Source of the DNA: Acidithiobacillus caldus ATCC 51756
Lineage (GTDB): Bacteria > Pseudomonadota > Gammaproteobacteria > Acidithiobacillales > Acidithiobacillaceae
Direction: 5' to 3'
DNA length: 64,000 nucleotides
NCBI RefSeq assembly: GCF_000175575.2
Contig: NZ_CP005986.1
Location: 1,061,549 to 1,125,548 of the forward strand
Part shown: positions 44,513 through 63,556 of the stretch, piece by piece
Layout: each line of letters starts with the position of its first letter
Numbering within the stretch: position 1 is the first letter of the stretch
The notes under the pieces: generated by a model
Told to the model about the DNA's origin: nothing
The model's database searches: none
Seen by the model: only the letters and a program-made list of their open reading frames with translations
Translations under genes and position numbers: made by a program

Positions 44513-44567
44513 TATCATAAGTTTGTCATAAAACCTTCATCATAATGTCACAATAAGCTGCTAGGCT
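44513..44567 (+). promoter_or_regulatory. Pho-box-type promoter of the TonB receptor gene
   Basis: Hexamers TGTCAT (44524), CTTCAT (44535) and TGTCAC (44546) are spaced at exact 11-bp intervals; a weaker ATATCA at 44513 is in phase. The -10-like TAGGCT begins at 44562, again 16 bp from the last hexamer. This fits tandem PhoB sites. Confidence 0.85.
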
Positions 44568-46959: not shown

Positions 46960-46986
46960 CTGAGCACAGGACGGGCCTGTGCTCAG
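46960..46986. terminator. Second hairpin before the phosphatase gene
   Basis: CTGAGCACAGG-ACGGG-CCTGTGCTCAG is an 11-pair perfect stem, extended on both sides by T-run and A-run bases. It directly follows the first terminator and ends 25 bp before the next start codon. It could be a symmetrical terminator, an RNA-stability element, or part of an attenuator. Confidence 0.55.
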
Positions 46987-47011
46987 AAAAATCGAACACG
47001 AGGAACTAAGA

Positions 47012-49933
47012 ATGAAGGCTTGGACAAAAGGCGGACATTGGATGTACCGGCGGCCCTTTTCGCGCCGTCCCGCGGCGCTCCTTGCGGGTGTGGTGGCAAT
47101 CTTGACCACGGCAACGCCCATGGCCTTTGCCGACCCTGCCCTGGTGGCTCAACCGATGCAGATAACGGCGGCCAATCGGAGCGAGTTTACCGGCATTCTG
47201 CCCACCTGGCGGCGGGTAACCCCCGTGGGTACCGTGGTGAGCACCCCCAATTTCCCCACGCAGGTGGCCGTGGCGGGTGACCGCATCGGGGTGCTGGCCA
47301 ACGGTGCGACGCCCTTTCAGACCATCACCTGGTTTGATCCCCATCTTCAGCGCTTGGCCCGCTTTGCTGCCCTGAGCAAGCCGGTGCCGCCCAAGCCCGT
47401 GGCCTTCGCAACGCCGGGCGGCACGGCCATCGCCATCGACCCCGAGCACACCGGTGCGGCGGGGACGGCCTACGCCACGGCGCAAACGGCGTCGGTGTTG
47501 CAGAAAGAGGCCGAGGATAGCCTCAAGGCGGAATCCAATCCCCAGGCGGTGGCCACGACCACCCTGGGCAAGGCCGATCTCTTCCAGGGCCTCGTCGCTG
47601 GTCCCGATGGGCGCTGGTATGCCACGGGTGGCGCCGCCGACGCCGTCTATGCGCTGCAGGTGCATGCGGGCAAGGTCACCGTCCTGCGCAGTTATCCGTT
47701 GCACTGGCAGAGCTTTCCCAAGAGTCAGTATCCCTACGTCTATCAGGGCAATCACCGCCAGAAGCCGTGGCTGTTCTATCCCGATTCCGTGGTGCTCGGG
47801 CCGCACGACAAGCATCTCTACGTGACCGGCATGCTCGCCAATAGCCTTGCCCGTATCGATCTCGTCAGTGGCAAGACCGATTACCTCAATGTCGGCCCCT
47901 ATCCCTTTGCCGTGGTCCTGGCGGATCAGGGAAAGCGGCTTGTGATCAGCGACTGGGCCGGCGACGGGGTGACGGTGGTGGATCGGCAGGGCTTTCGGGT
48001 GCTCGGTCGGGTGCGCACGGCGCCACCCCTTGGGCCGCACAGTCGCGCCGCCGGTGCCCACCCCACGGCCATGGTGGCAGCGGCCGATGGCCCCGATGTC
48101 TGGGTAGCCGATGCCAACAGCGATGCCGTCGTCGAGATCGACAGCGAAACCCTGAAGCCCGTGCGGGTGCTGGCGGACAGTCCCTATCCCGACGCCCCAC
48201 CCGGCAGTTATCCCGATGCCCTGGCCCTTTCCGACGGCAAGCTCTTCGTTGCCAATGCCGGCAACGACGACGTGGCGGTCTTCGCCGCCAAGTCGGGCAA
48301 GCTTGAAGGCCTTATTCCCACCGCCTGGTACCCCACGGCTTTGGCCGTTCACGGCCATTACCTGTACATCACCGCCGGCAAGGGCTTTGGCACCGGACCC
48401 AACCTGCAGTGGCAGTACATCGGCAACATGATGCATGGGCTCCTGCAGCGCGTGGATCTGGACGAACTGCCCGAAAAGCTTGGGCATTGGACCGACCTGG
48501 CCCTCGCCGACGACGGTTTCAGTGCAGCGCAGCGGCAGGCCCTGGCGGAGCAGAATGCCAAGACGACGGATTTCCTGCGTCGCCACATCCACTATGTGGT
48601 CTTCATCCTGCGGGAGAACAAGACCTTCGACGAAGACTTCGGCGACTATCGGGCGGCGGGCTCCTGGGCCGATCCGCACTTCGACCTGTACGGGCCCAAG
48701 GAACTGCCGAATCTGTACCATTGGGCGGCGCACAACGTGCTGTTCGCCAACTTCATGGCCGATGGTGAGGTCACGGCCCAGGGACATCAGTGGACGGACG
48801 GCGCGTCGGACTCCGATGTCGTGCAGCGTCTGTGGCCAGAGTACTACTCCAGCCGCGGCCTGCTCTGGAATGCCGGTCCCGGGGGGTCCTCCAGCCTCAG
48901 TCCCGGCGCCCCCGGCAGTCACGACCCCTACCAATACAACCGCCGGTCGTTGGGGCATTACACCAATCCCTGGATGAGCTATCCCGAGCGCCTCTACCTC
49001 TTCAACGATCTTCTCGCGCACGGCGTCTCCTTTGAAGACTTCGGTGAGAATCTGAGCCGCAGTCGCGATGGCGTCATCCGCAAGGCCCTTTTGGCGCACG
49101 TCGACGCCACCTATCCCGGCTGGGACCGGATGCTACTGGACGGGACGCGGGTAAAAGCGGCCATCCGCTGGCTGCGCGCCCATTCCGGCAAGCGCTTTCC
49201 CCATTTCATCTTCATCTGGATTCCCGACGATCACACGGCGGGCCTGGCGCCCTGTTACTACAGCCCCGACTACTACGTGGCCGACAACGACCACGCCACG
49301 GCCCAGTTGCTCCACTATCTGGCTAGCACGCCTCAGTGGCGACACATGGCCGTCTTCCTGACCGAAGACGATGCCCAGTCGGGCGCGGATCACATCGATG
49401 CCCACCGTACCTTTGCCTTGGCCATGGGGCCCTGGGTCAAGGGCGGGGATCTGGACACCGCACCCCTCTCCCAGGTGAACATCGTCCGCACCATCGAAGC
49501 CACCTTCGGCCTGCCGCCCATGTCCCAGTGGGATGCCAATGCAGAGGTCATCTCCGGCATCTGGCGCGATCGTCCGCGCAAGGACCCCATGCCGGTACTG
49601 CCCATGCAGGTAGCCGTCCAGTTCAATGCCGGGAAATGCAGCCGGCAGTTGCTGCTGCGCCGTGAGGCGGGCGCCACCGGTAACCTTCCCACGGCGGCTT
49701 GGCTGAAGGCCCACACGGACCCCCACGGTGCCACGGTGGCCCTTGCCGCCAGCGCTAGCTACACGCCCACGAGTCTGCTCAGGGTGCCGGGACCGGAGCA
49801 GTTGCGCCAGGAGTGGATCGCGAGCAAAGGGCAGCGAAGCTATCGGGACTTCGAGGCCTATTTGCGCCAGTATGCCGCCGCCCACGGTACCACGGTAGCG
49901 AGCTTCGAGGCCAATGAGGGGAAACTGCAGTGA
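47012..49933 (+). CDS. Secreted YncE-like propeller / phosphatase fusion
   Basis: A 973-residue exported protein. The leader has SRRPAALLAGVVAI, compatible with a Tat signal, and ends near TPMAFA. Residues about 60-500 are beta-propeller-like repeats (PDGRWYATGGAADAVYALQV, LGPHDKHLYVTGML, ADGPDVWVADANSDAVVEID, DGKLFVANAGNDDVAVF). Residues about 520-860 form an alkaline-phosphatase-superfamily phosphoesterase of the acid phosphatase / phospholipase C type: HYVVFILRENKTFDEDFGDY, FMADGEVTAQGHQWTDG, IWIPDDHTAG and VFLTEDDAQSGADHID (metal ligands). Likely substrate class is organic phosphate esters in the periplasm or outside. ATG 47012 has GAGG. Confidence 0.9.
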   Translation: MKAWTKGGHWMYRRPFSRRPAALLAGVVAILTTATPMAFADPALVAQPMQITAANRSEFTGILPTWRRVTPVGTVVSTPNFPTQVAVAGDRIGVLANGATPFQTITWFDPHLQRLARFAALSKPVPPKPVAFATPGGTAIAIDPEHTGAAGTAYATAQTASVLQKEAEDSLKAESNPQAVATTTLGKADLFQGLVAGPDGRWYATGGAADAVYALQVHAGKVTVLRSYPLHWQSFPKSQYPYVYQGNHRQKPWLFYPDSVVLGPHDKHLYVTGMLANSLARIDLVSGKTDYLNVGPYPFAVVLADQGKRLVISDWAGDGVTVVDRQGFRVLGRVRTAPPLGPHSRAAGAHPTAMVAAADGPDVWVADANSDAVVEIDSETLKPVRVLADSPYPDAPPGSYPDALALSDGKLFVANAGNDDVAVFAAKSGKLEGLIPTAWYPTALAVHGHYLYITAGKGFGTGPNLQWQYIGNMMHGLLQRVDLDELPEKLGHWTDLALADDGFSAAQRQALAEQNAKTTDFLRRHIHYVVFILRENKTFDEDFGDYRAAGSWADPHFDLYGPKELPNLYHWAAHNVLFANFMADGEVTAQGHQWTDGASDSDVVQRLWPEYYSSRGLLWNAGPGGSSSLSPGAPGSHDPYQYNRRSLGHYTNPWMSYPERLYLFNDLLAHGVSFEDFGENLSRSRDGVIRKALLAHVDATYPGWDRMLLDGTRVKAAIRWLRAHSGKRFPHFIFIWIPDDHTAGLAPCYYSPDYYVADNDHATAQLLHYLASTPQWRHMAVFLTEDDAQSGADHIDAHRTFALAMGPWVKGGDLDTAPLSQVNIVRTIEATFGLPPMSQWDANAEVISGIWRDRPRKDPMPVLPMQVAVQFNAGKCSRQLLLRREAGATGNLPTAAWLKAHTDPHGATVALAASASYTPTSLLRVPGPEQLRQEWIASKGQRSYRDFEAYLRQYAAAHGTTVASFEANEGKLQ

Positions 49934-49972: not shown

Positions 49973-50949
49973 CATGCCTCTGAATCATTCTCAGCAATCA
50001 AGCTCTAACTCTCTGTGAGGCATAGAGAAAGGAGGTCTGAGATGAAAGCTGAAGCGACGAACCTCTTGCAGTGGCAAGCGCGGTTTGGCACGGAAGAGGC
50101 CTGCTTGGAGGCGCTGAAACAAAAGCGCTGGCCCGAGGGGTTTCGATGTCCGAAATGCGGCCATGACCGCGGATACTGGATCGCCGGACGAAAACTCTTT
50201 CAGTGCGGGCACTGTCGCCATCAGACCTCGGTGACGGCCGGCACAATTTTTCATTCGTCCAATGTGCCCCTGGTGCAATGGTTCCTGGCCATCTATTTGA
50301 TGGCGAGCGACAAGGGCGGATTGTCCGCCCTGCGGCTGTCGAAGCAGATTGGGGTCTCCTGGATCACGGCTCACCGGATGTTGCGCCGCATGCGCCGCGC
50401 CATGGGCGATCGCGACAGTCTGTATCGCTTGGAAGGGCTGGTAGAGTTGGACGATGCCTTTGTCGGTGGACGCCGGTCTGGGGGGAAGAGCGGTCGAGGG
50501 GCCGAAGGCAAAACACCGATCTTGGTTGCCGTGGAAAACCGGGGCAAGAAGGCGGGCTTTATTGCCATCGAGACGACGCCTTCGGTCTCTGCCGACCGGA
50601 TTCGCGAATTCGCGCGGCGACGCTTGCGCCCCAAGCAACCTACCCGCACCGACGGCTTAATAGCGCTGCGAGTTCTCGGAGAGAGCCAAGAGCATGAGGG
50701 GCGCGTGACCAAACCGCATCAGGTGGACGAGTGGTTGCCGTGGGTACACATCGCCATTGGTAACCTCAAGGCCTTTCTTTTGGGCACATTCCATGGGGTA
50801 TCCGGCAAATATCTGCAGGAATATCTGAACGAGTTTGTCTATCGCTTCAATCGCCGTTTCTGGGAGCCAGAACTGCCCCTGAGGTTGCTCAATGCCTGTA
50901 TGGAACATATCCCGGTCCGGCTTGTTGCTGAGAAAGGTTAACAGGCATG
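49973..50949. mobile_element. IS1595-family insertion sequence, 977 bp
   Basis: Imperfect terminal inverted repeats of about 25 bp begin CATGCCT at both ends and share TTCTCAGCAA at their inner ends (49973-49997 and 50925-50949). An 8-bp duplication, TCAAACTG, flanks the element at 49965-49972 and 50950-50957, as expected for IS1595. One transposase gene is inside on the plus strand. The insertion splits a Pho box. Confidence 0.92.
50042..50941 (+). CDS. IS1595-family transposase
   Basis: A 299-residue transposase. The N-terminal zinc ribbon is FRCPKCGHDRGYWIAG ... FQCGHCRHQTSVTAGTIFHSS, a hallmark of this family. HTH-like ALRLSKQIGVSWITAHRMLRRMRRAM follows. The ISXO2-type catalytic domain begins LVELDDAFVGGRRSGGKSGRG (first Asp), with TDGL (second Asp) and GNLKAFLLGTFHGVSGKYLQEYLNEFVYRFNRR at the C-terminus. 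The usual SNLK is GNLK here. A near-perfect AAAGGAGGT site precedes ATG 50042. The gene is intact. Confidence 0.93.
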   Translation: MKAEATNLLQWQARFGTEEACLEALKQKRWPEGFRCPKCGHDRGYWIAGRKLFQCGHCRHQTSVTAGTIFHSSNVPLVQWFLAIYLMASDKGGLSALRLSKQIGVSWITAHRMLRRMRRAMGDRDSLYRLEGLVELDDAFVGGRRSGGKSGRGAEGKTPILVAVENRGKKAGFIAIETTPSVSADRIREFARRRLRPKQPTRTDGLIALRVLGESQEHEGRVTKPHQVDEWLPWVHIAIGNLKAFLLGTFHGVSGKYLQEYLNEFVYRFNRRFWEPELPLRLLNACMEHIPVRLVAEKG

Positions 50950-51054: not shown

Positions 51055-52425
51055 ATGAGTGCCGTATTCACCACCCTCGATGAGCAGTCCATCACCCGCC
51101 GGCACCGCCGCGTCCTTTGGGCCTCGGGCCTCGGGATCTTCCTCGATGGCTACGATCTCAGCATCATGGCCATCGCCCTCATCGTCCTCAAGGATCAGTG
51201 GCACCCCAGTTCTGCCGCCCTGGGCCTTTTGGGGACTGCGGCCCTGGTGGGTGCTCTGGTGGGGGGACTTCTGGGCGGCCCCATCGCCGATCGCTTTGGC
51301 CGCAAGACCATCTACCTCATCGATATCGCGGCTTTTTTCTTTGCGGCACTGCTCTCGGGTTTCGCCTGGGATATCGCTTCCCTGGTGGCCTTCCGCTTTT
51401 TACTGGGCCTTGGGGTGGGCGCCGATTATCCCCTGAGCTCCACCTATATGGCGGAGTTCATGCCCAAGGACCGCCGTGGGGCGGTGATGACCTGGATCTT
51501 TGGTTTATGGATGGGCGGAGCCGTGGTCTCGAGCCTCGTCGGCCTTGCCCTCCTGCACACGGGACCCGACGCCTGGCGCTGGATGTTGGCCTCGGGCGCG
51601 CTGCCCGCCATTCTGGTCTTGTGGATGCGGCGCAATCTGCCGGAATCGCCGCGCTGGTATCTGCGTCGCGGACGGGTAGCGGACGCCGAGCGGGTCGTGG
51701 CCTGGCTCGCTCCGCAACTCTCGGCAGCCGAGCGGCGCGCAGCTCTGGAGGAGACGGCCGCTGCCATGGAGGGGGCACGGCGCCACAGCTGGCTGGACCT
51801 CTTCGGTAAACGTTACCTCAAGCTGACCCTGTATGCCTGCATTCCCTGGTTCATGATGGACGTCATGGGGTACGCCTTAGCCATTTTCCTCCCCCTCATG
51901 CTCCTGCATCTGGGTCTCAAGACCAACGAACAGGCGGTGATCGGCAATACCCTGTTCAGTCTTGCCTTTGTCATCGGCTGGATTCCCTTGGCCCTGCTCA
52001 TCGACCGGATCGGTCGCCGCCGCGCCCAGATCATCGGTTTTTTGGGTGACGCGCTGGGTCTTGGGCTCGTGGGGGTACTGCTGGTAGCCTTGGGTGAACC
52101 GCCTTTCTGGGCCGTGGCCACGGGTCTCTTGCTCTTTCAGATCAGCAATAGCTTTGGCCCCGGAACCACCACCTGGATCATCCCGACGGAGCTCTATCCG
52201 ACGGAGCTGCGCGCCAGCGGCCACGGTTTCGCCACCGCCGTCAGCCGACTGGGCGCAGCCACCAGTGTGTTCCTGCTGCCCACCATCCAGGCGACCCTGG
52301 GCGAAGCGGGCTTGCTCTTCTTGCTGGCCGGCGCTGGCGGGGTTGGCGTCGTGACCACCCTCTGGCTCGGTAACGAGATGGCGCGCGAATCCCTGCCCGA
52401 AAGCCTGGCGCGCAAGGCGGCCTGA
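51055..52425 (+). CDS. MFS transporter, phosphate:H+ symporter-like
   Basis: A 456-residue, 12-helix major facilitator. N-terminal GLGIFLDGYDLSIMAIAL and the A-motif-like GGPIADRFGRKTIYLIDI are present. LGLGVGADYPLSSTYMAEF is close to the PHS-family GGDYPLSxxxxSE signature. Second-half LIDRIGRRRAQIIGFLGD and TELYPTELRASGHGFATAVSRLGA follow the sugar-porter/PHS pattern. Phosphate, a phosphate ester or another organic anion is possible; the former is favoured by the ancestral Pho box. Three bases separate its stop from the convergent glycosyltransferase stop. Confidence 0.85.
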   Translation: MSAVFTTLDEQSITRRHRRVLWASGLGIFLDGYDLSIMAIALIVLKDQWHPSSAALGLLGTAALVGALVGGLLGGPIADRFGRKTIYLIDIAAFFFAALLSGFAWDIASLVAFRFLLGLGVGADYPLSSTYMAEFMPKDRRGAVMTWIFGLWMGGAVVSSLVGLALLHTGPDAWRWMLASGALPAILVLWMRRNLPESPRWYLRRGRVADAERVVAWLAPQLSAAERRAALEETAAAMEGARRHSWLDLFGKRYLKLTLYACIPWFMMDVMGYALAIFLPLMLLHLGLKTNEQAVIGNTLFSLAFVIGWIPLALLIDRIGRRRAQIIGFLGDALGLGLVGVLLVALGEPPFWAVATGLLLFQISNSFGPGTTTWIIPTELYPTELRASGHGFATAVSRLGAATSVFLLPTIQATLGEAGLLFLLAGAGGVGVVTTLWLGNEMARESLPESLARKAA

Positions 52426-52428
52426 GTC

Positions 52429-53448
52429 CTAGTGCCGGCCCCGGGCCGGTACGAGGTTGCCCAGGAATTCTCGGGTACAGCCAGCCCAGTCGTAGACCAT
52501 CGCGCGTTCCCGACAGGACTCCCGCGACAGCTCCAGGGCCGCCAGCGCCGCCGTGCGCAGATCGGCATCGAGGATGCCGTTGATGCCATTGCGCACGGTG
52601 GCCAAGGGACCTACCACGGGATAGGCCGCCACCGGTACACCGCAGGCATTGGCCTCGAGGATGACGAGACCCAGGGTATCGGTGCGGCTGGGGAAGACCA
52701 TGACATCCGTAGCCGCCAGATGGCGGGCGAGATCCTCGCCCTGGCGCATCCCCAGCCAGTGCACGTCGGGATAACGGGACTGCAGTTCCGCCGCCTGCGG
52801 CCCGTCACCGATGACCACCTTGCTTCCGGGCAACTGCAGGCGCAGGAAATCCTCCACATTCTTTTCCACCGCCACCCGCCCGAAATACGCATAGACCGGA
52901 CGCGGAAGGTCCAGGATGGCGTGCCGTTCCGCCTCGGGGAGTGGGCGAAAGAGCGTGGTGTCCACGCCGCGGCTCCAGAGTGCCAGGCGGGTAATGCCAC
53001 GGGCACGCAGGTCTTCGGCCAAGGCAGGGTTGGAGACCATGGTGTGGGCCGCGCCACCGTGAAACCAGCGCAGAAAGGCGTAACTCAAACCCAGCGGCAC
53101 CGGCGCCCGTGCCGCCAGATATTCGGGAAAGCGAGTGTGGAAGGAGGTGGTGAAGTCCCAACGCCGACGCTTGCAGTAGAAGCGTGCCGCAAGCCCCAGC
53201 GGGCCTTCCGTGGCGATGTGCACGGCGTCCGGCTGGAAATCGCCAAGCAAGCGCTTAATCGAGGCGTAGGGGCGTAGGGTCAGGCGAATTTCGCGGTAGG
53301 TGGGGCAGGGCACGGTACGCTGGCCAAGACTGTTGACCACCAATACCTCGTGGCCCATCCGCTGCGCCTGTGCGGCGGTTTCGCTGAGGGCACGCACGAC
53401 ACCGTTGATCTGCGGATGCCAGGCGTCCGTGACCAGCGCGATCTTCAC
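52429..53448 (-). CDS. GT4 glycosyltransferase, Agt-like (diacylglycerol glycosylation)
   Basis: A 339-residue GT-B enzyme. N-terminal MKIALVTDAWHPQINGVVRAL, the acceptor-side TSFHTRFPEYLAARAPVPLGLSYAFLRWFH, and WSRGVDTTLFRPL precede the donor-site motif FPSRTDTLGLVILEANACGVPVAAYP. This combination is typical of the Agt/SqdX-type enzymes that glycosylate diacylglycerol. It could make glucosyl- or glucuronosyl-diacylglycerol, or act as SqdX on UDP-sulfoquinovose from sqdB; a mannosyltransferase role is the main alternative. GTG 53448 overlaps the phosphoesterase stop (GTGA), so the two are coupled. Confidence 0.85.
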   Translation of the reverse strand: MKIALVTDAWHPQINGVVRALSETAAQAQRMGHEVLVVNSLGQRTVPCPTYREIRLTLRPYASIKRLLGDFQPDAVHIATEGPLGLAARFYCKRRRWDFTTSFHTRFPEYLAARAPVPLGLSYAFLRWFHGGAAHTMVSNPALAEDLRARGITRLALWSRGVDTTLFRPLPEAERHAILDLPRPVYAYFGRVAVEKNVEDFLRLQLPGSKVVIGDGPQAAELQSRYPDVHWLGMRQGEDLARHLAATDVMVFPSRTDTLGLVILEANACGVPVAAYPVVGPLATVRNGINGILDADLRTAALAALELSRESCRERAMVYDWAGCTREFLGNLVPARGRH

Positions 53449-54284
53449 GCGACGACTTCCTCATCCAGCGCCACGCTCTGGGGGTCGAGCAGCGGCCGCT
53501 GGTCCACGGGTAATCCGTCCGGGCCCCAGTGCACCAAGTGCATCTGGCCGTCAAAGTCCTCCACCAAAGCGGTGCAGCTCTCCACCCAATCGCCGTCGTT
53601 GAAGTATTGGACACCGGCCAGATTCTTGATTTCGGCGTGGTGGATGTGGCCGCAGACCACACCATCGTAGCCCGCCTGATGACAGCGCAGGGCAAGGAAC
53701 TGCTCGTACTGGCTGATGAACTGCACGGCTTTTTTGATGCGGTGTTTGACGAAGGCGCTGAGGGACCAGCGGCTGCGGATGCCCAGCAGACGATTGAGGC
53801 GCTGATGGTAACGGTTGAGGGCGAGCAGGAGTCCGTAGCCGCGATCGCCCAGGCGGGTCAGCCAGACGGCGTAGCGGGCGCTGACATCGAACTGATCGCC
53901 GTGGGTGACCCAGATGCGGCGACCATCGGCGGTTTCGTGCACGCAGTCGGTAACGATGCGGATATCCCCGAAGTGCAGACCGCCGCCCTCGGCCTCCAGC
54001 AGAGAGTGCAGAAAGCCGAGGATGGGGTCGTGATTGCCCTGGACATAGACCACCCGAATGCCATTGCGTGCCTGCCGCAGGATCTTCTGGATTACGGTGC
54101 TGTGGGCACTGGGCCAGTACCAGCGTCGCCGCAGTGCCCAGAGATCGATGATGTCCCCCACCAGATACAGGTGTGCGGCGCGGTAGTGGCGCAGAAAATC
54201 CAGCAGGGCCTCGGCCTGGCAACCCTTGGTTCCCAGATGGATGTCGGAGATGAAGATACTTCTGCAGTTGGCGGTTTCGAGCAT
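53445..54284 (-). CDS. Metallophosphoesterase, PlcP / LpxH-like
   Basis: A 279-residue calcineurin-like phosphoesterase with all metal motifs: FISDIHLGTKG, YLVGDIIDLWALRR, YVQGNHDPILGF, WVTHGDQFDV and VVCGHIHHAEIK. This type includes UDP-2,3-diacylglucosamine hydrolases and the rhizobial phospholipase C PlcP, which makes diacylglycerol from phospholipid during phosphate limitation. Coupling to an Agt-like glycosyltransferase favours the PlcP role. ATG 54284 is chosen because a TATAAT lies at 54349-54354, leaving a leader; GTG 54344 would fall too close to that -10. Confidence 0.87.
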   Translation of the reverse strand: MLETANCRSIFISDIHLGTKGCQAEALLDFLRHYRAAHLYLVGDIIDLWALRRRWYWPSAHSTVIQKILRQARNGIRVVYVQGNHDPILGFLHSLLEAEGGGLHFGDIRIVTDCVHETADGRRIWVTHGDQFDVSARYAVWLTRLGDRGYGLLLALNRYHQRLNRLLGIRSRWSLSAFVKHRIKKAVQFISQYEQFLALRCHQAGYDGVVCGHIHHAEIKNLAGVQYFNDGDWVESCTALVEDFDGQMHLVHWGPDGLPVDQRPLLDPQSVALDEEVVA

Positions 54285-54348
54285 GCTTGGGGCATTTCCA
54301 GGGGTGCCGACATCGGGAAAAGTCAAAACGTTACCTGCTTCCACGGCG

Positions 54349-54413: not shown

Positions 54414-54470
54414 ACTGTCATCATTTTGTCATAAAAGGTTCATAAAGCTGTCATATTAGCGGGGTATCCT
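54414..54470 (+). promoter_or_regulatory. Pho-box promoter with four repeats
   Basis: Hexamers TGTCAT (54416), TGTCAT (54427), GTTCAT (54438) and TGTCAT (54449) are in exact 11-bp phase. The -10-like TATCCT starts at 54465, 16 bp after the last hexamer start. It drives the regulator gene at 54533. Confidence 0.88.
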
Positions 54471-54532: not shown

Positions 54533-55315
54533 ATGCTGTATGCCTTTATTGCTGGAACCCTGCACCATGCCGTCCACCTCGGTGATGCCCTCGCTCTGCT
54601 CAGCGCGGTGCGTTGGGACGAGATGGACCCCCTCTATCGTGCCCGCACCCTGCTCTTTGGGCAAGCGCCGGAAATAGATGGCTTGACCCAGCGCCTGCGT
54701 CGATCCGGTGCTTTTCCCCGCCGTGCCACCGACCGCAAGCTCGTGGCTGAAGTCTTGCGCGACTGGCGCCCGCAGCTGCTCATCTTGTTGTCCTGGCAGG
54801 GAGATCTGGCGACGGATCTGCGTCAGTGGCTGGCGGGGCCGCAGGGGGAAAATCTGCGCGTCCTCGCCCTGGGTCCGGAAGGCGACGATCAGGCCATGGC
54901 CGCCCTGGATGCCGGGGTACACGCCTATCTCACCTATCCCCTCAGCGAAACCCTGCTCATCGCCCAGGCCAGCGCCCTACTGCGCGGCGGCCAGGGCTGG
55001 GAGGGCACGGCCGTGGAGATTCCGGGAGTGCTGCGCATCGACCCCATGGCGCACCGCATCTGGGTACAGGAGCAGGAGCTACAGCTCAGTCGTCGCATTT
55101 TTCGCCTTTTTCACTACCTTGCCCTGCACCCCGGACAGACTTTTTCCGCCGCAGAGATTGCTCATCACCTCAGCGATGGGCGCAAATTCGTGCAGGAAAA
55201 TACTATCGCTGCACAGATCCATCGTCTGCGCAAAGCGCTGGAAGCGGCAGGTGCGGATATCTGGCTGGAAACGGTCCATGGCTTCGGTTATCGCCTCAGC
55301 GTTCCGGCGAGCTGA
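54533..55315 (+). CDS. OmpR/PhoB-type regulator with degenerate receiver
   Basis: A 260-residue protein. The C-terminal ~95 residues are an OmpR/PhoB winged helix (LQLSRRIFRLFHYLALHPGQTFSAAEIAHHL ... VQENTIAAQIHRLRKALEAAGADIWLETVHGFGYRLSV). The N-terminal half keeps receiver-like late elements (LRVLALG, AALDAGVHAYLTYPLSETLLIAQASALLR). Where the phospho-acceptor Asp belongs it reads LLILLSWQGD, with Ser, and the Lys of the KP motif is Tyr. It is therefore unlikely to be phosphorylated in the usual way. It has its own four-repeat Pho promoter and lies directly upstream of exbB. GAGAGGA ribosome site. Confidence 0.85.
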   Translation: MLYAFIAGTLHHAVHLGDALALLSAVRWDEMDPLYRARTLLFGQAPEIDGLTQRLRRSGAFPRRATDRKLVAEVLRDWRPQLLILLSWQGDLATDLRQWLAGPQGENLRVLALGPEGDDQAMAALDAGVHAYLTYPLSETLLIAQASALLRGGQGWEGTAVEIPGVLRIDPMAHRIWVQEQELQLSRRIFRLFHYLALHPGQTFSAAEIAHHLSDGRKFVQENTIAAQIHRLRKALEAAGADIWLETVHGFGYRLSVPAS

Positions 55316-55320
55316 TTCTT

Positions 55321-55399
55321 CTTGTCATGCATTTGTCATAATAATGTCACAAAAATGTCATATAAGCTTCATAATACTGTCATATTCCAGTGTTAGGAT
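55321..55399 (+). promoter_or_regulatory. Six-repeat Pho operator of the exbB operon
   Basis: Six hexamers start at 55323, 55334, 55345, 55356, 55367 and 55378: TGTCAT, TGTCAT, TGTCAC, TGTCAT, CTTCAT, TGTCAT, each exactly 11 bp apart. That is three tandem Pho boxes. The -10-like TAGGAT starts at 55394, 16 bp from the last hexamer. Confidence 0.92.
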
Positions 55400-55426: not shown

Positions 55427-56113
55427 ATGGACTTTTCATACATCATCCATCTGGCCAACTATTCCGAAGGTGTCCTCTACGTCCTGGCGGCACTGCTGCT
55501 GGTAGAGCTCGCGGTCATGGTCGACCGTTTCTGGTATCTGCGCCGCACCATCGTGCGCGGCGACGCCATCGTTCATGAAGTGGCCAATCAAGGCCGACTG
55601 AATCGGGAACAACTGCATGAGCTCGCCCAACGGGCCGGGGATCTGCCCGAGGGGGTACTCCTGCGCATGGCCGCTGCCCACGCCGGCCAGGTCAAAGGTG
55701 AGGCCCTCGCCAGCCGTCTCGAGGAATCCGTCATCACCCTGGCACCCAATCTCGATCGTCGCCTCTGGCTGCTGGACACCATCATCACCCTGGCACCCCT
55801 GTTGGGTCTGTTCGGTACGATCATCGGGATGTTCCATGCCTTCCACGTGTTGGCGGCTCCTGGGCACGCGCCGACGGAAGTGACGGGTGGTGTCGCCGAC
55901 GCCCTGGTGGCGACGGCCTCGGGGCTCTTCATCGCCATCCTGGGACTGCTCGCCTTCAACGGGTTTAACAACCAGGTCCGCCAGATCCTGCTGCAGCTGG
56001 ATTCCGTCAAGACCATGCTCATCAACCGTATGGACGGTCAACCCATGCTCAATCCCGAGGGCGATGCGGACGTTCATACCGCCGAGCTGCCGCGGATGGC
56101 GAGGGTCGGCTGA
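55427..56113 (+). CDS. exbB: ExbB/TolQ-type proton-channel protein
   Basis: A 228-residue inner-membrane protein with three hydrophobic segments (about 13-32, 115-140, 155-178). The MotA/TolQ/ExbB pattern is seen in LDTIITLAPLLGLFGTIIGMFHAF and GGVADALVATASGLFIAILGLLAFN. With ExbD it converts proton motive force into work on TonB. ATG 55427 has GAGGGA. Its stop overlaps exbD (TGATG), and six Pho repeats precede it. Confidence 0.93.
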   Translation: MDFSYIIHLANYSEGVLYVLAALLLVELAVMVDRFWYLRRTIVRGDAIVHEVANQGRLNREQLHELAQRAGDLPEGVLLRMAAAHAGQVKGEALASRLEESVITLAPNLDRRLWLLDTIITLAPLLGLFGTIIGMFHAFHVLAAPGHAPTEVTGGVADALVATASGLFIAILGLLAFNGFNNQVRQILLQLDSVKTMLINRMDGQPMLNPEGDADVHTAELPRMARVG

Positions 56114-56514
56114 TGGAGCGGCGCTACTTCGAACAACGCAAGGGGCGGGTGGAGATCATTCCCATGATCGATATCATGCTCTTTCTGCTGGTGTTCTTCA
56201 TCATGATCACCTTGCAGATGATCCCCGATCAGGGCCTCAACCTGCAATTGCCCAAGTCCAGCGAAGCCAAAGCGCTGCCGCGTCCGCACTACACCATCAA
56301 CATTGAAAAAGATGGCACGGTGGACGTGAAGGGCAAGCACTACGACCTTGCCGGGCTGCAGAGCATGCTCGCCCACGATGGCGACCCGGCCAAGACCGAA
56401 ATCACCATTGCCGCTGACAAGGCCGTACCGTTTCAGGACTTCATCCACGTCATGGATGCCTGCCAGAAGGCCGGGGTCAGCGATATCGGCATTGCCGCCA
56501 AACCCAACGGCTGA
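56113..56514 (+). CDS. exbD: ExbD/TolR-type protein
   Basis: A 133-residue protein with one N-terminal membrane segment containing the essential Asp (IIPMIDIMLFLLVFFIMITLQM, Asp about residue 19). A periplasmic domain follows with INIEKDGTVDVKGKHYDL and ITIAADKAVPFQDFIHVMDACQKAGVSDIGIAAKP, matching ExbD/TolR. It partners ExbB and is translationally coupled to it. Confidence 0.93.
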   Translation: MERRYFEQRKGRVEIIPMIDIMLFLLVFFIMITLQMIPDQGLNLQLPKSSEAKALPRPHYTINIEKDGTVDVKGKHYDLAGLQSMLAHDGDPAKTEITIAADKAVPFQDFIHVMDACQKAGVSDIGIAAKPNG

Positions 56515-56558: not shown

Positions 56559-58958
56559 GTGTCTAACCGCAATACTATCGCCACTGCTCGTGTGCATGCC
56601 GGGCACGGCACGCCGAGGTCCATGACCCCGTCGCCTCTGTTCCTCGCCCTGATGGGTGCAATGTTCTGTCCCACAGCCTTCGGTGCGGACCTTGGCAGCG
56701 CCACGGCGCCAACGCAGTCCGCCGCCGTGTCCGTGGGCGAGGTGAGTGCCGCTGCCGCAGCGGAGTCCTATCTGGGAAGCGCGCAGGCGCAATCCCTCAC
56801 CCAGAAGCACAACTTCAATTCCGGCCAATCCATCAAGGTGCTGGGTAAGGAACAGATCGCAGCCGCTGGCCCTCTGGGTGGCAGTGCGCAGGCGCTCTCC
56901 TACGCGCCGGGTGTGGGTGTCACCAGTTACGGAAATACCGGGGCAACCAAGAACTCCATCAGTATCAATGGAATAAAGCAGGGTTACGGCGGCTTTTCCG
57001 GTGGCCAGATCGATGACGGCAGCCTTTCGGTGACCTTTGATGGCGTACCCATGGTGGATCCGGGCACTGGCCTGTGGGAATCACCACAAGTGCCGCAGAC
57101 GGGAATCCTGCAGGGCATCAACCTCACCTACGGTCCCGGTAATCCGCAAAACCGCTGGTACAACAACATCGGCGGGCAGATCGACTTCGTTCCCCTGCAG
57201 CCCACGGCCAAACCCGGTGGCGACATCAAGCTGACCTACGGCAATTACGATTCCAAGAACATCGTGTTCAACATCCGTACGGGTAGTATCGACGGTTGGT
57301 CCACCATCATCGCCGGTGGCGCGGGTTCGTCCCAGAGTTATCGCCAGAGTCCCGATGGTTTCAATAACCCCAGCTACAGTTATGCCTGGTTCCTGAAAAC
57401 CCGCAAGACCTTCAGCAACGGCGATTTTTCCGTGGGAGCCTACCTTGCCAAGGGATCGGGCTATCGGCCCGTGCCCATCCCGGTGAATCCCATCAATGGC
57501 GTGACGCTCACCGGTGCGGCAGGATCCCCCCTGTACAGTCAGACTACCACCGGCTTTTATTCCTCGCTTCCCAAGGGCATCTGGTACAAGCAGGACAGCA
57601 ACAGTACCTGGTTGATCTACAGCAAGCTCAATGTGGCTCTGGACAAAACCTGGGGCCTGCACAACATGGTGTGGTACCGCCACGGCCATCGTCTGCACTT
57701 CCACTACAATAATTACGGCCTGGGCAATCCGTCCAATCTCTACGAGTACAATAACCCCCACGATGCCGTCTACGGCGACAAACTGTGGCTCAGTGCCAAG
57801 CTGCCCTACAACGACGTGAGCTTTGGTGGCTATTTCCTGAATAGCCGGTATAACACCCGCAACGCCTTCTACAATCCAGCGGACGGTGGCACGCGCTTTG
57901 TTCCCAATGCACACTATCGCAGCGACTACTTCGATCAGACCTTCCTGGCGGCCTTCCTGCAGGATCGCATCAGCCCGCTGAGCAATCTGCACATTACCCC
58001 AGGGATACGTTTCATCAACCTGCAGACCCACTACACGCCAGCAGGTCAGACGGACTTTGCCCAAGCCTATGCGCTGTATCCTAAGAACGACCAGGGACAG
58101 TTGCCCGCGGCCAATACCAGCTTCACCAAGGTAGAACCCTCGGTGGATTTCAATTGGCAGCCGCTCCATTGGCTGGCGGTATTCGCAAGCTATGCCCAGG
58201 CCTACAAGGAGCCGCAATTTGGCGGCGGCGGTGGCCTGTTCCAGAAAAAAGCGCCCATCTACAATCTGGAAAAGGGTGCGGATTACAATGCCGGCGTCAA
58301 GGTACATTTTGACAACGCGCCGTACCTGCACCACTTCCTGGCTACGGCAAGCTTCTATCATCTGCACTACACGAATCAGTACATTCCGCTTTATGACGCC
58401 AACGGTAACTACATCGGCGACGCCAATGGCGATTCGATCTACCAGGGTGTGAATATCGCCATCGAAGACGACATCCTGTACAACCTGCACGTTTTTGCCA
58501 ATGCCAACTTCGAGAAGGCAACCTTCGATCACTACGTGACGAGTGGCGTCAGTTACGATGGCCTGCCCGTATCCAACGTGCCCAACAAGACCTTCAACAT
58601 CGGTACGAGCTATCGCTACTACCTCTCGGGCATACTGCTCAAGCCCAGCCTGTGGTACCAGTATGTGGGCGCGCAATCCTTGTTCGACAACAATGCTGGC
58701 GCTCCGAGTACGACCAAGATGCCGGGCTACGGTACCGTCAATCTCGGTCTGCACGGCACGGTTCCCATGCAGGGCAGCGTGCCCATGTTGAAGACCGTCG
58801 ACTTCAGTGTCGATATCCTCAATATTGCCAACAACCACTACAACGAGTTCGAGTACATTACTGGTGGTGGTCTATTGGGCGGTGATTCGGCGGGCCAGAT
58901 TCTGGCGCTCCCGGGTGCACCCTTGACCGTATACGGCAGTATTTCTGCACATTTCTGA
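56559..58958 (+). CDS. TonB-dependent outer-membrane receptor (second)
   Basis: A 799-residue receptor: an unusually long N-terminal leader with a hydrophobic stretch (LFLALMGAMFCPTAFGA) about 30-46. Then AAVSVGEVSAAA (similar to the first receptor's IDIGEVSSS), a plug with LGKEQIAAAGPLGGSAQALSYAPGVGVTSYG, VTFDGVPMVDPG and LTYGPGNPQNRWYNNIGGQIDFVPLQP, and a barrel ending SISAHF. GTG 56559 has AAGGAGAG. It lies between exbD and tonB, so the locus encodes a complete TonB system with its own receptor. The ligand is unknown. Confidence 0.92.
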   Translation: MSNRNTIATARVHAGHGTPRSMTPSPLFLALMGAMFCPTAFGADLGSATAPTQSAAVSVGEVSAAAAAESYLGSAQAQSLTQKHNFNSGQSIKVLGKEQIAAAGPLGGSAQALSYAPGVGVTSYGNTGATKNSISINGIKQGYGGFSGGQIDDGSLSVTFDGVPMVDPGTGLWESPQVPQTGILQGINLTYGPGNPQNRWYNNIGGQIDFVPLQPTAKPGGDIKLTYGNYDSKNIVFNIRTGSIDGWSTIIAGGAGSSQSYRQSPDGFNNPSYSYAWFLKTRKTFSNGDFSVGAYLAKGSGYRPVPIPVNPINGVTLTGAAGSPLYSQTTTGFYSSLPKGIWYKQDSNSTWLIYSKLNVALDKTWGLHNMVWYRHGHRLHFHYNNYGLGNPSNLYEYNNPHDAVYGDKLWLSAKLPYNDVSFGGYFLNSRYNTRNAFYNPADGGTRFVPNAHYRSDYFDQTFLAAFLQDRISPLSNLHITPGIRFINLQTHYTPAGQTDFAQAYALYPKNDQGQLPAANTSFTKVEPSVDFNWQPLHWLAVFASYAQAYKEPQFGGGGGLFQKKAPIYNLEKGADYNAGVKVHFDNAPYLHHFLATASFYHLHYTNQYIPLYDANGNYIGDANGDSIYQGVNIAIEDDILYNLHVFANANFEKATFDHYVTSGVSYDGLPVSNVPNKTFNIGTSYRYYLSGILLKPSLWYQYVGAQSLFDNNAGAPSTTKMPGYGTVNLGLHGTVPMQGSVPMLKTVDFSVDILNIANNHYNEFEYITGGGLLGGDSAGQILALPGAPLTVYGSISAHF

Positions 58959-59058: not shown

Positions 59059-59988
59059 ATGAGTGTCACCGTAAACAGCGCCGGAATGCCACCGCGCGGA
59101 CCCCATCGTCAGGGCTATTTTGGTCGCGGTCTGGTCATCGCCGCGCTGTTGGAGGCGGGGCTGATCATGGCCCTGGTCTGGGTCAGTAACCAGAAGGCGC
59201 CGCCGCCGCCCAAACCCAAACGAATTGCCATCCACATGGTGCAGCCGGCGCCGCCCAAACCCAAACCCAAGCCGGTTCCGCCCAAGCCCGTGGTGCAGCC
59301 TAAACCCAAACCGGTGCCAAAGCCCGTGCCAAAACCGGTGCCGCAGCCCAAGCCGCAGCCGGTAGTCCATCACATTCCGAAGCCGAGCCCCAAGCCGCTG
59401 GTGGCCAAGACGCCGGCGCCCACGGCGCCGGTGGTGCCGCCAAGCCCGCCGGTGACTGCGCCGCCGCCACCACCACCGCCGGCGCCGAGCCCCTCGGCCC
59501 AAAAGGCGGCCCTGGCGGAGTACGCGGCTCTGGTACGCGCGCGGGTGCAGGCCGACACTCGGGTTCCGGAGGCGGTACGCCTCATGCACTTGCGGGGCAC
59601 CGCCATCGTCGCCTTTGAACTGACCCCGTCCGGTCGTCTGGTGTCGGCACAAATCGCGCAATCCAGCGGCATCAGCGCCATCGACAAGGCGGCCCTGGCA
59701 GCGGTGGAGAACACCAGCTACCCGCCTTTTACCAAGAACATGCCCAAGCACACGATGCGCTTGACGTCGAGGTGCACCTCTCGGCAGAGAGTGGCGGGTG
59801 ACACGTCCAAAATGGAAGGTATATCGTGCGCAAACTCATCTGGATCCTCATTCCCTTGCTCATCGTCGTGGCCGTGTGGAGTTTCTGGCCGCGCCAGAAG
59901 CCAGGTCTCGTCTTCTACAGCGCCGTCAGTTACGGTCCCATGCTCGCCCAGGCCTTCACGAAGGAGTCGGGCATTCCGGTACGGGTAG
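59059..59988 (+). CDS. tonB: TonB protein, with apparent frameshift near the 3' end
   Basis: One N-terminal membrane segment (about 24-44), a long Pro/Lys-rich periplasm-spanning region (repeats like PKPKPVPKPVP), then the TonB_C domain (VRARVQADTRVPEAVRLMHLRGTAIVAFELTPSGRLVSAQIAQSSG ... SYPPFTKNMPKHTMRL). At 59761-59762 the frame leaves the expected sequence. One extra base would give MRFDVEVHLSAESGG and a stop at 59799-59801, a natural TonB end 24 bp before the next gene. As written, it runs to 59988, overlapping the binding-protein gene by 163 bp and losing the last beta strand. A mutation or a sequencing error; both are possible. GGAGG ribosome site before ATG 59059. Confidence 0.82.
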   Translation: MSVTVNSAGMPPRGPHRQGYFGRGLVIAALLEAGLIMALVWVSNQKAPPPPKPKRIAIHMVQPAPPKPKPKPVPPKPVVQPKPKPVPKPVPKPVPQPKPQPVVHHIPKPSPKPLVAKTPAPTAPVVPPSPPVTAPPPPPPPAPSPSAQKAALAEYAALVRARVQADTRVPEAVRLMHLRGTAIVAFELTPSGRLVSAQIAQSSGISAIDKAALAAVENTSYPPFTKNMPKHTMRLTSRCTSRQRVAGDTSKMEGISCANSSGSSFPCSSSWPCGVSGRARSQVSSSTAPSVTVPCSPRPSRRSRAFRYG

Positions 59989-60839
59989 TGGAGATGTCCA
60001 CGGGGGCATTGCTGGCGCGCGTCTCGGCCCAGGGCAACAATCCCCAGTGGGACGTGGCTTGGTTCGATGGCGCCTCGGCGGCAGCCGGCCTCCAGCGTGC
60101 GCACCTGGTCGCCTCGGGTATCGTGCCCAGGGATATTCCCTGGACAGATCTCGGGAAGTCCCTGATTCCGGCAGATGGTGCCTGGATTCCCACGGGCTAT
60201 ACCCTGGCGGGTGTGTTCCTGCACCCGGCCAAGCGTCCTGCTCCCGCCACCTGGGACGATCTGCTGCAGGCGCGCTGGCGTGGGCGCTTTGCCATGAACA
60301 ATCCGGCCATTTCTGGTCCTACCTATCCGCAGGTGGCGGGGTGGCTGTACAGTCATGGAGGCTGGCCAGCGGGCCAGAGCTTCCTGCTGGCCCTGAAAGC
60401 CAATGGCATGCAGGTCTATCCCAAAAATAGCAATACCATTCACGCCCTGAGCCAGGGTGAGGTCGATCTGGCCATCGTGCAGTCGTCGGCGGCCTATGCC
60501 CTTGCCGCGGAGCAGCCAGGCCGGTGGGCAGTGAGCATCCCGAAGTCGGCAGTGCTGCTGCCGCGCGTGATGGTGTTTGCGGACCATCTCAGTGCCAAGC
60601 AGCGGCGTGACGCGGCAGACTTCGCCCGTTTCATGCTGAGCCCAAAGGCGCAGGAGCTTGCCATGCGCAAGGGCGCGCCGGACGGTTATTACTGGCCCAT
60701 CACCCGCACTGCTCCGACAGCGGATCCGGGGATGGCCAGCACCCAGTCCTTACCCTTGATCAATCTGGATCCGGCTTTCTGGGGTGCGCGGGAGAGTGCC
60801 ATCAACGCCTGGTTCAGCAGCCACATCCTGGGGCAGTGA
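59826..60839 (+). CDS. ABC transporter substrate-binding protein (FbpA/2-AEP type)
   Basis: A 337-residue exported binding protein: N-terminal hydrophobic signal or anchor (LIWILIPLLIVVAVWSFW), then the type II periplasmic-binding fold seen in iron, thiamine and 2-aminoethylphosphonate systems (LVFYSAVSYGPMLAQAFTKESGIPVRVVEMSTGALLARV, WDVAWFDGASAA, PATWDDLLQARWRGRFAMNNPAISGPTYPQVAGW). Ligand cannot be read from sequence. GTG 59826 has GGAAGGT. Its stop overlaps the permease start (GTGA). Confidence 0.87.
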   Translation: MRKLIWILIPLLIVVAVWSFWPRQKPGLVFYSAVSYGPMLAQAFTKESGIPVRVVEMSTGALLARVSAQGNNPQWDVAWFDGASAAAGLQRAHLVASGIVPRDIPWTDLGKSLIPADGAWIPTGYTLAGVFLHPAKRPAPATWDDLLQARWRGRFAMNNPAISGPTYPQVAGWLYSHGGWPAGQSFLLALKANGMQVYPKNSNTIHALSQGEVDLAIVQSSAAYALAAEQPGRWAVSIPKSAVLLPRVMVFADHLSAKQRRDAADFARFMLSPKAQELAMRKGAPDGYYWPITRTAPTADPGMASTQSLPLINLDPAFWGARESAINAWFSSHILGQ

Positions 60840-62440
60840 GGGTGAGTGTGCGGCGTTATCGAGGCATCCTGCGCACCCTGCCGGTGTGGCTGATCATCCT
60901 GATCTTTTTTGTTTACCCTCTGGGGCGATTCCTGCTTTTGCCCTGGTTTCCCCATTGGGCGCCCGAGAGCCTCGGGGCGGCCTCCTGGCCCAGCGATGGC
61001 TGGGCGGCTTTGCGCAACTCCGTGGTGCTGGCCATTGCCGCCGCCGGCTTGGCCGCGGCCTTGGGTACTTTCTGGGCCTGGGCCATGGAGCGGCGGCGCA
61101 GTGCCTGGCATCCTTGGTCCGAGGCGGTGCTCTGGCTCATTTTTCTGATGCCCAGCTATCTCCTTACCACGGGCTGGGAGATCCTGTTCGCTGCGCCGAT
61201 TCTTCGCCACGGCTTCTTGCACGACGGGTTCTATAGCCCTGTGGGTATCATCGTCCTGCTCGCCGCCAAGGCGCTGCCCTTTGCCATCTTCGTGGTGCGC
61301 CCGCTCTGGGCTGCCCTGGGCCACGAACTGACGGAAGCCATGCGCATCTTTGCCGTTCGTCCGGGTCGGGCGGTGCGGGTATTTCTGCGCTTGGCCATAC
61401 CCGTTGCCTCCGCCGCCACCGTGGTGTCCTTCATCGAGAGTGTCCAGGAATTCGGCATTCCGGCAACCCTCGGGGCACACCTGCATCTGCCGATCCTGAC
61501 CTATTCCATCTACGCGGCCCTGAGTACCTCGCCCCTGAATTTCGTGGGTGCGTCGCGGCTTGCCTTGCTCCTGGTGGTTCTCGCATTTTCTGGGGCGCTG
61601 GTGCAGATCGCGCTGCAAAGGCGCTTTGGCGCGGTGCTCGTGCATGCACAGGTCCGGCATCGGCTTCCCGCGCGGCCGAAACGATCCGAGGCCCTGGTGA
61701 TTGCCGCGATGAATCTGGTGGTGGGTGTACTGGTCCTCGTCCTGCCCATGTTGGCCATCGTCCGCTCCGCTTTTCAGGGCGGCGTGTCGGCATTGCGTAT
61801 GGCCGACTGGGACCCGGTCCTGCACTCCCTGGGCTTTGCCCTCCTGGCAGCATCCCTGGCCATCCTGCTGGCCTGGCTGTTTGCACGCAGCCTGGTCTCC
61901 GGCGGCGTCGGTGGACGGGCCATGGACGTGTTTTCCATGGGGAACATGGCCGTACCCGGACTGGTACTGGGGGCGGCCTACATCATGGCCTTCAACCTGC
62001 CCGGCTTCTCCCTCTACGGCGGCAGTCTCCTGCTGATTCTGGCCTATACGGCGGCTACCGCGCCCATGCTCACCCGCCTTTTGCAGGCGCCCATGGCCCA
62101 GCTGGATCGGTCGCTGGGGGATGCCGCTCGCATCCACGGGGTATCGGCCTGGGTCCGCTGGCTGGACATCGATGCGGCCCTGTTGTCGCGGCCGCTGGTG
62201 CGCGGCTGGCTTCTGGCCTTTGGCACGGTGATGTTTGAGCTGCCGGTATCGGAACTCCTTTACCCGGCGGGCAAGACGCCCTTGGGGGTTGCGGTACTCG
62301 CCCTGAACAACGGTGAGCATTTTGCGGCGGCGGCGCGCCTTGCCCTGGGCGGTTTGGCGAGCGTGGCTCTGGTTACGGTGGTGGTGCTGGTGCTGCTGCG
62401 TTTTGCACTCCCCGATTACCGGATGGCTGTGACACAATAG
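60836..62440 (+). CDS. ABC transporter permease with two fused permease domains
   Basis: A 534-residue protein with about 12 membrane segments made of two tandem permease domains. Each carries an EAA-type loop: LTEAMRIFAVRPGRAVRVFLRLAIP (about residue 170) and LGDAARIHGVSAWVRWLDID (about 430). Fused permeases are typical of ferric iron (FbpB/SfuB), thiamine and 2-aminoethylphosphonate importers. It is coupled to the binding-protein gene; the ATPase follows after 12 bp. Confidence 0.9.
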   Translation: MRVSVRRYRGILRTLPVWLIILIFFVYPLGRFLLLPWFPHWAPESLGAASWPSDGWAALRNSVVLAIAAAGLAAALGTFWAWAMERRRSAWHPWSEAVLWLIFLMPSYLLTTGWEILFAAPILRHGFLHDGFYSPVGIIVLLAAKALPFAIFVVRPLWAALGHELTEAMRIFAVRPGRAVRVFLRLAIPVASAATVVSFIESVQEFGIPATLGAHLHLPILTYSIYAALSTSPLNFVGASRLALLLVVLAFSGALVQIALQRRFGAVLVHAQVRHRLPARPKRSEALVIAAMNLVVGVLVLVLPMLAIVRSAFQGGVSALRMADWDPVLHSLGFALLAASLAILLAWLFARSLVSGGVGGRAMDVFSMGNMAVPGLVLGAAYIMAFNLPGFSLYGGSLLLILAYTAATAPMLTRLLQAPMAQLDRSLGDAARIHGVSAWVRWLDIDAALLSRPLVRGWLLAFGTVMFELPVSELLYPAGKTPLGVAVLALNNGEHFAAAARLALGGLASVALVTVVVLVLLRFALPDYRMAVTQ

Positions 62441-62452
62441 GAGGCGAGCGGT

Positions 62453-63556
62453 ATGGCGACGGCAAGGGAGTGGGTGCCAGCGGTGGGTGCGGCGCATGCA
62501 GGAGAAGCCAGCGACGGTGCGGCGGCGCTTCTGGAAGTGCAGGCCTTGCATCTGCGCTTGGGGCGAAAGACGATTCTGCGCGGGATCGATCTCCGCTTGA
62601 ATCCGGGCGAGGTCGTGCTACTCATCGGTCCCTCGGGCTCGGGCAAGAGCAGCCTGCTGCGCGCCATTGCCGGGCTCGAACCCCTGGAAAAAGGCCGTAT
62701 TCGGCTTCAGGGAGACCTGTTGGACGATGGCCGCGGTACGGCGCTCAGCCCCGAGCAGCGACGGATGGCCATGGTTTTCCAGGAGCACGCCCTGTGGCCG
62801 CATCTGACGGTGGAAGAGAATGTCCAGTTGGTCATTCCCGGGCGTAGCGGGCGCGAGAAGACGCGCGCGTTGCTCGAGCGTATGGGCATCGCCCAGCTCG
62901 CCAAGCGCCGACCCCACGAGATTTCCGGTGGGCAGCGCCAGCGGGTGGGGCTCGCGCGGGCCCTGGCCGTGGCTCCCAGCCTCATGCTCATGGACGAGCC
63001 GCTGTCCAGCCTCGATGTGGAGTTGCGCGAACAATTGCGTTTGGAGATTCGGCGCTGGCTGCGGGAGTTGGGTATCGGTGCCTTGATCGTCAGCCACGAT
63101 CCCGACGACCTCTGGCGTCTGGCGGATCGGGTCGTGGTCCTCGCCGATGGCCGTGTCGTCCAGGACGGTTCGCCCCAGAACCTCTACGATCACCCGCAAC
63201 TGCCCTGGATCGCACGCTTCACCGGCGCCCAAGGGCCTTTCCCGGCGCGCTGGGAGGATGGCATGCTGGACTTCGCTGGACAGGGGCTGAAACACCCGGG
63301 CTTTGGTGGCGCCTCTGGCTCGGGTTGGCTCTTCATCCGACCTGAGCGTGTGGAGATCCGGGGCGAGGCCCAGCGGGGGCTTGCGGCTGTGCTGCGCCAT
63401 TGTGCCTTTGAGCGCGGCCACTATCGCAGCTACTGGGAGCTCCCGGGTTTGTCCGATACTTTGGTCGCCCTATCCAGCAGTGCGCCGCCGGCGCACGCGC
63501 GCCTGTGGGTCGACCCACAACAGCTTTTCTTTTTTCCACGATCTTCACAGGAGTGA
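62453..63556 (+). CDS. ABC transporter ATP-binding protein
   Basis: A 367-residue ATPase with Walker A GPSGSGKSS, Q-loop MVFQEHALWPHLTVEEN, signature ISGGQRQRVGLARALAV, Walker B LMLMDEPLSSLD and switch His in IVSHDPDDLW. A C-terminal extension of about 120 residues resembles a TOBE-type regulatory domain (FIRPERVEIR). It drives the upstream permease. AGGAGG precedes ATG 62453. Substrate of the transporter is unresolved between iron-type and phosphonate-type ligands. Confidence 0.92.
   Translation: MATAREWVPAVGAAHAGEASDGAAALLEVQALHLRLGRKTILRGIDLRLNPGEVVLLIGPSGSGKSSLLRAIAGLEPLEKGRIRLQGDLLDDGRGTALSPEQRRMAMVFQEHALWPHLTVEENVQLVIPGRSGREKTRALLERMGIAQLAKRRPHEISGGQRQRVGLARALAVAPSLMLMDEPLSSLDVELREQLRLEIRRWLRELGIGALIVSHDPDDLWRLADRVVVLADGRVVQDGSPQNLYDHPQLPWIARFTGAQGPFPARWEDGMLDFAGQGLKHPGFGGASGSGWLFIRPERVEIRGEAQRGLAAVLRHCAFERGHYRSYWELPGLSDTLVALSSSAPPAHARLWVDPQQLFFFPRSSQE

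Follow-up and report, generated by a model that had tools for sequence, protein, structure and literature searches.

The exbB operon and the repeats in front of it

The features described here lie in a window of 64,000 nucleotides from the acidophilic sulfur bacterium Acidithiobacillus caldus ATCC 51756 (contig NZ_CP005986.1, positions 1,061,549 to 1,125,548) and are listed in Table 1. The exbB gene is the first of a series of genes for a TonB energising system, an outer-membrane receptor and an ABC transporter. Six hexamer repeats are present 5' of exbB, starting 8 bp past the stop codon of the gene for a PhoB-like regulator and ending 43 bp short of the exbB ATG (55427).

Table 1. Genes, repeat arrays and promoter element of the exbB region. 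Coordinates are those of the window.
Feature	Position	Strand	Remarks
Four-unit Pho array	44513..44551	+	before the receptor gene at 44599
Second TonB-dependent receptor of the window	44599..46902	+	767 aa
PF04185 phosphoesterase	46979..49933	+	984 aa; downstream of the 767-aa receptor
MFS transporter	51055..52425	+	several relatives have a homologue adjacent to the regulator
Glycosyltransferase and calcineurin-like phosphoesterase pair	52429..54344	-	adjoins a Pho array; several relatives also have the pair near the regulator
Four-unit Pho array	54416..54454	+	before the regulator gene
PhoB-like winged-helix regulator	54533..55315	+	260 aa; degenerate receiver
Six-unit (three-box) PhoB operator, predicted	55323..55383	+	units 3-6 two-box core, units 1-2 extra box
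Extended -10-like element TGTTAGGAT	55391..55399	+	TGnTAnnnT; 7 bp past the last unit
exbB (MotA/TolQ/ExbB channel)	55427..56113	+	first gene of the operon
exbD	56113..56514	+	Pfam
TonB-dependent outer-membrane receptor	56559..58958	+	799 aa
tonB	59059..59988	+	one-base shift at the 3' end against the sister, near 59761
Periplasmic substrate-binding protein	59826..60839	+	FbpA / pyridoxal-phosphate-binding / 2-AEP-binding superfamily; probable operon member
ABC permease, fused pair	60836..62440	+	best NCBIfam match PhnU2, below cut-off
ABC ATPase	62453..63556	+	best NCBIfam match PhnT2, below cut-off

The order exbB-exbD-receptor-tonB downstream of the repeats, as given in the initial annotation, is correct. 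The ExbB, ExbD, TonB C-terminal and receptor plug and barrel domains are all recognised by Pfam, with the TonB C-terminus altered at its very end. The exbB and exbD genes overlap, the receptor, tonB and ABC transporter genes follow with short gaps or overlaps, and this order is kept in the sister species. It is therefore likely that exbB through to the ABC transporter genes are expressed as one transcript. The end of tonB (59740-59988) has one base fewer near 59761 than the sister sequence, so that the last residues in the sister, FDVEVHLSAESGG, are replaced by a longer tail reading into the next gene; this may be either a real frameshift or a sequencing error. No PDB relative of the 799-aa receptor was found by sequence. 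The binding protein shows roughly equal similarity to ferric-iron-, pyridoxal-phosphate- and 2-aminoethylphosphonate-binding proteins, and the models for 2-aminoethylphosphonate ABC transporters (TIGR03261, TIGR03262 and TIGR03265) all scored below cut-off on 59826-63556.

On the forward strand the repeats read TGTCATgcatt TGTCATaataa TGTCACaaaaa TGTCATataag CTTCATaatac TGTCAT, the units matching TGTCAT at 6, 6, 5, 6, 4 and 6 of 6 positions with a period of exactly 11 bp. The unit score of the array is 11.4, against a maximum of 3.8 in shuffled 250-bp upstream regions (n=3000). The six consecutive Pho repeats reported in the initial annotation are thus borne out in number and spacing. The fifth unit, CTTCAT, is degenerate, however TTCAT is also the form of the third unit in most of the four-unit arrays in this genome, which usually have the structure TGTCAT-TGTCAT-TTCAT-TGTCA[CT]. 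This alignment suggests that units 3-6 are a standard two-box operator, to which units 1-2 have been added as a further box.

Pho arrays elsewhere in the genome and the PhoB-PhoR pair

The 2.99 Mb genome, in four contigs, was searched with a four-unit pattern derived from several arrays, allowing up to 3 mismatches and using the reversed pattern as the control. Nine matches were found, two of them inside the exbB array, and the control found none. These matches precede pstS, an olsB-like gene, a phosphate-symporter-like MFS gene, three TonB-dependent receptor genes, the PhoB-like regulator gene and the exbB operon. The pstS product passes the TIGR00975 cut-off (353.7 vs 205 bits) and the olsB-like gene is of the ornithine-lipid type. 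The best equivalog for the MFS gene is a phosphate:H+ symporter, with a score below cut-off.

Most of the Pho arrays in the genome are followed, 7 bp past their last unit, by a sequence of the form TGnTAnnnT. This is TGTTAGGAT at exbB, where it sits approximately 27 bp upstream of the ATG, TGCTATCGT at pstS, TGCTAGGCT, TGATAACCT and TGCTAGAGT at the three receptor genes, and TGCTAGCAT at the MFS gene. At exbB, as at pstS, the Pho box therefore adjoins the -10 element in the position of a -35.

A single protein in the genome, encoded at C1:814898-815563, scores above the cut-off for PhoB (TIGR02154, 303.9 vs 296.2 bits). Its recognition helix and wing, RTVDVHIRRLR ... TVRG, have the form expected of PhoB, with the residues assigned to DNA contact in the PhoB-DNA structure retained. 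The gene directly after phoB encodes a PhoR-type kinase with PF11808, HisKA and HATPase domains. Together, the arrays before pstS and other phosphate genes, the promoter geometry they have in common with exbB, and the presence of PhoB-PhoR suggest that the exbB promoter is activated by PhoB. The proposal of Pho control in the initial annotation is strongly supported by this resemblance in operator and geometry, in a genome that encodes a true PhoB. The array is in all likelihood a PhoB operator, making the exbBD-receptor-tonB operon, with its ABC transporter, a predicted member of the Pho regulon. The TonB energising unit, a type of system usually linked to iron, would very probably be switched on by a lack of phosphate.

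Conservation of the array

Two-box arrays of 3-4 units before exbB are conserved across the Acidithiobacillaceae. An array is present before nearly all of the best exbB orthologues in the family, and also in the 13 named relatives in which the regulator and exbB are linked. Within the family, almost every exbB orthologue from three other genera is preceded by 3-4 units in the corresponding position. The close named relatives are all Acidithiobacillus or Igneacidithiobacillus. The clear exceptions among the family's best exbB matches are L068, L074 and L076, which have neither an array nor a detectable regulator.

Six units at exbB are confined to this genome and that of the sister species (G001) among the family genomes examined. 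In a search of 274 genomes of the class, the six-unit pattern matched at this site alone, none of the 273 other genomes sampled having the full pattern, and the reversed control gave 0 matches. Across 29 genomes of the family it matched in this genome, the sister and two others (G022 and G027), against 4 matches for the reversed control, all in one genome. These latter arrays, from another genus of the family, are of five to seven units. The one in G022 (L130) lies before a TonB-dependent receptor gene, and the one in G027 (L106) before an open frame, interrupted by Ns, that resembles the beginning of a receptor. The statement in the initial annotation that three boxes exceed the usual number consequently holds for this genome, the family and the class as sampled, yet operators of six repeats have been described at Streptomyces pitH2 (PMC7866108).

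Between this genome and the sister, the exbB arrays differ at 1 of 36 unit positions and at 5 of 25 spacer positions, a borderline difference (p = 0.04); unit 2 in the sister is one base off the consensus. The extra box formed by units 1-2 appears to have been gained in the lineage of these two species.

The adjacent PhoB-like regulator

The regulator encoded 5' of the exbB array resembles PhoB in its C-terminal winged helix alone. It scores 90 bits against the TIGR02154 cut-off of 296.2 bits, and its receiver has no PF00072 match. Comparison of the orthologues shows that the acidic pocket and the Lys have been lost and that the residue in place of the phospho-acceptor Asp is variable, being S, G, N, D or E. 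The protein family is clade-specific: of 16 loci located in a scan of the genome collection, 15 are in the Acidithiobacillaceae. Where PhoB of this genome has R, D, H, R and a wing R, the regulator has N, A, Q, H and a wing H, and these residues are kept across the orthologues. A different DNA specificity is therefore predicted, and the Pho array is probably not read by this regulator. The Pho array before the regulator gene itself is kept in several relatives, and makes the protein a likely second-layer regulator under PhoB.

TonB-dependent receptors and phosphorus genes

There are six TonB-dependent receptors in the genome. Four are behind Pho arrays, three of them directly and the fourth inside the exbB operon, and no Pho array was found before the remaining two. 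In other genera a smaller share of the receptor loci inspected have Pho arrays (1 of 9, 1 of 6 and 3 of 9). The likeness of the receptors to siderophore and heme receptor families is weak.

Three of the receptors with Pho arrays are near PF04185 phosphoesterases, one in the window and two elsewhere in the genome. These phosphoesterases are each of approximately 1000 aa and are located at 46979-49933 in the window, L084:5266-8493 and L085:5434-8382. One of the two clusters outside the window, headed by a receptor with a Pho array (L014:5733-5771, C1:709732-709770, - strand), also holds a second, distant exbBD pair. The 52429-54344 gene pair is reminiscent of the Agt-PlcP genes for phospholipid replacement under phosphate starvation, and is a candidate for a pair of this type. 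The ORF at 50015-50941, between the phosphoesterase and MFS genes, is a putative IS1595-type transposase.

Alternative explanations

The intergenic region is, by eye, richer in AT than the flanking genes, so an AT-rich direct repeat arising by chance or without function was considered. The array score far beyond the shuffles, the absence of reversed-pattern matches against nine for the four-unit pattern, and the retention of the array across genera rule this out for practical purposes. In principle, a different protein of the OmpR family, whose members bind 11-bp direct repeats, might recognise the array, and the adjacent regulator is one candidate. In that case the regulator would govern its own gene and the operon next to it, with no part played by PhoB or phosphate. 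Its gene adjoins the operon and has an array of its own, and the linkage of regulator, array and exbB is conserved in the family. However, the same repeats precede the distant pstS, olsB-like and MFS genes, and the DNA-recognition positions differ from those of PhoB in a way that is conserved in the orthologues. Some exbB loci also have an array with no regulator within the 1.5-kb flank, a result limited by the flank length and the tblastn cut-off. Recognition by the adjacent regulator in place of PhoB is therefore very unlikely.

The remaining alternative concerns what the operon is for. In the 2008 proposal for the Acidithiobacilli it would serve iron uptake under joint control of Fur and PhoB, with phosphate as the ferric chelator. 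The available part of that report calls the receptors of A. caldus and its relatives ferri-siderophore receptors, predicts their control by Fur, and links them to phosphatases and PhoB-like regulators (PMC2631029). The relationship of the binding protein to FbpA-type iron-binding proteins is also in its favour. Against it, iron is plentiful at low pH (an argument from PMC2621215) and the co-regulated genes are phosphorus genes. Within 300 bp of exbB, the regulator gene and the three receptor genes with Pho arrays, no Fur-box match rose above chance, which agrees with the initial annotation, where none was seen by eye. As a positive control, a consensus Fur scan of the genome was itself weak (16 vs 6 control matches), and the absence of a Fur box is accordingly tentative. 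Iron uptake is an unlikely role for the operon, although less so than control by the adjacent regulator, and Pho control in the service of phosphorus acquisition is preferred.

Proposed mode of action

Under phosphate starvation, PhoR would phosphorylate PhoB, and dimers of PhoB~P are expected to line up head to tail on the direct repeats. Of the three boxes, the promoter-proximal one (units 5-6) would stand in for the -35 hexamer, and the bound PhoB~P may recruit RNA polymerase to the extended -10. The extra box (units 1-2) probably raises occupancy, and the response may be stronger, more sensitive or graded; very strong or graded induction was the suggestion of the initial annotation. Once made, ExbBD-TonB would energise both the receptor of its operon and the remaining receptors under Pho control, which may import scarce phosphorus compounds (or metal-phosphate complexes) through the outer membrane.

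In biomining acidophiles, TonB receptors have been annotated as receptors for siderophores, though the habitat of these organisms has iron in plenty. Phosphate precipitates with ferric iron and phosphorus is therefore plausibly scarce in that habitat. In this genome, predicted PhoB operators stand before most of the receptors as well as a dedicated energiser. They speak for phosphorus, and give these annotated 'iron' genes a function that can be tested. It is conceivable, though somewhat short of an even chance, that in Acidithiobacillus the TonB-ExbBD system has largely passed from serving iron to serving phosphorus, and that this change is most complete in the present species and its sister. 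PhoB would then preside over the energiser, most receptors and the receptor-linked phosphoesterases, with the clade-specific PhoB-like regulator, its receiver dead, as a second layer downstream of PhoB.

Comparison with known systems

A Pho-controlled, dedicated TonB machine was considered unusual in the initial annotation. This is only partly right, since the exbB2D2-tonB4 genes of P. aeruginosa are PhoB-dependent (PMC4971064) and a linkage between TonB and phosphate genes in Acidithiobacillus was reported in 2008 (PMC2631029). The P. aeruginosa operon, phdA-pdtB-exbB2D2-tonB4, is part of the PUMA3 regulon and requires PhoB together with the ECF sigma factor VreI. In it, as predicted for the operon described here, exbBD and tonB are expressed from a PhoB-binding promoter that is responsive to phosphate starvation. 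Its pho box is upstream of the -35 and -10 (PMC4971064), whereas the Acidithiobacillus Pho boxes replace the -35. There is also no sign of a VreI-type system in the Acidithiobacillus exbB operon. Given this precedent, Pho control of exbBD-tonB is not new in kind.

The clusters described by Osorio and colleagues in 2008 are from the same group of organisms, A. caldus included, and the accessible portion of that report places the TonB receptor and ExbBD-TonB with phosphatases and PhoB-like regulators, proposing uptake of phosphate-chelated iron under Fur and PhoB (PMC2631029). That portion describes no Pho operators and does not tell the PhoB-like regulator apart from true PhoB. In Caulobacter crescentus, according to the part of the report available, TonB-dependent receptors with a presumed role in the import of phosphorus compounds are under PhoB control (PMC11208175); that case concerns receptors, while the Acidithiobacillus case includes the TonB-ExbBD energiser.

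With regard to the operator, the canonical PhoB promoters, such as those of E. coli with a 22-bp pho box next to the -10, share the 11-bp direct-repeat units, the replacement of the -35 and the PhoB-PhoR pair. They have one or two boxes, whereas exbB of A. caldus has three, driving a TonB energiser. The PhoP operator of Streptomyces coelicolor pitH2 is likewise made up of six units of 11 nt, of which four form the core and two are ancillary, the latter being filled at higher levels of the regulator (PMC7866108). It differs in belonging to an actinobacterial PhoP, with another gene and consensus, and in that the extra units there are the poorly conserved ones (PMC7866108).

What is new in the Acidithiobacillus system is the array itself, together with its retention throughout the family and the added box found in a single lineage. 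It is also new that the true PhoB is told apart from the degenerate PhoB-like protein encoded beside exbB, that the receptors preceded by Pho operators have been counted, and that the exbB locus is read as one probably devoted to phosphorus acquisition. The locus offers a natural three-box PhoB operator, as predicted, beside two-box versions in close relatives.
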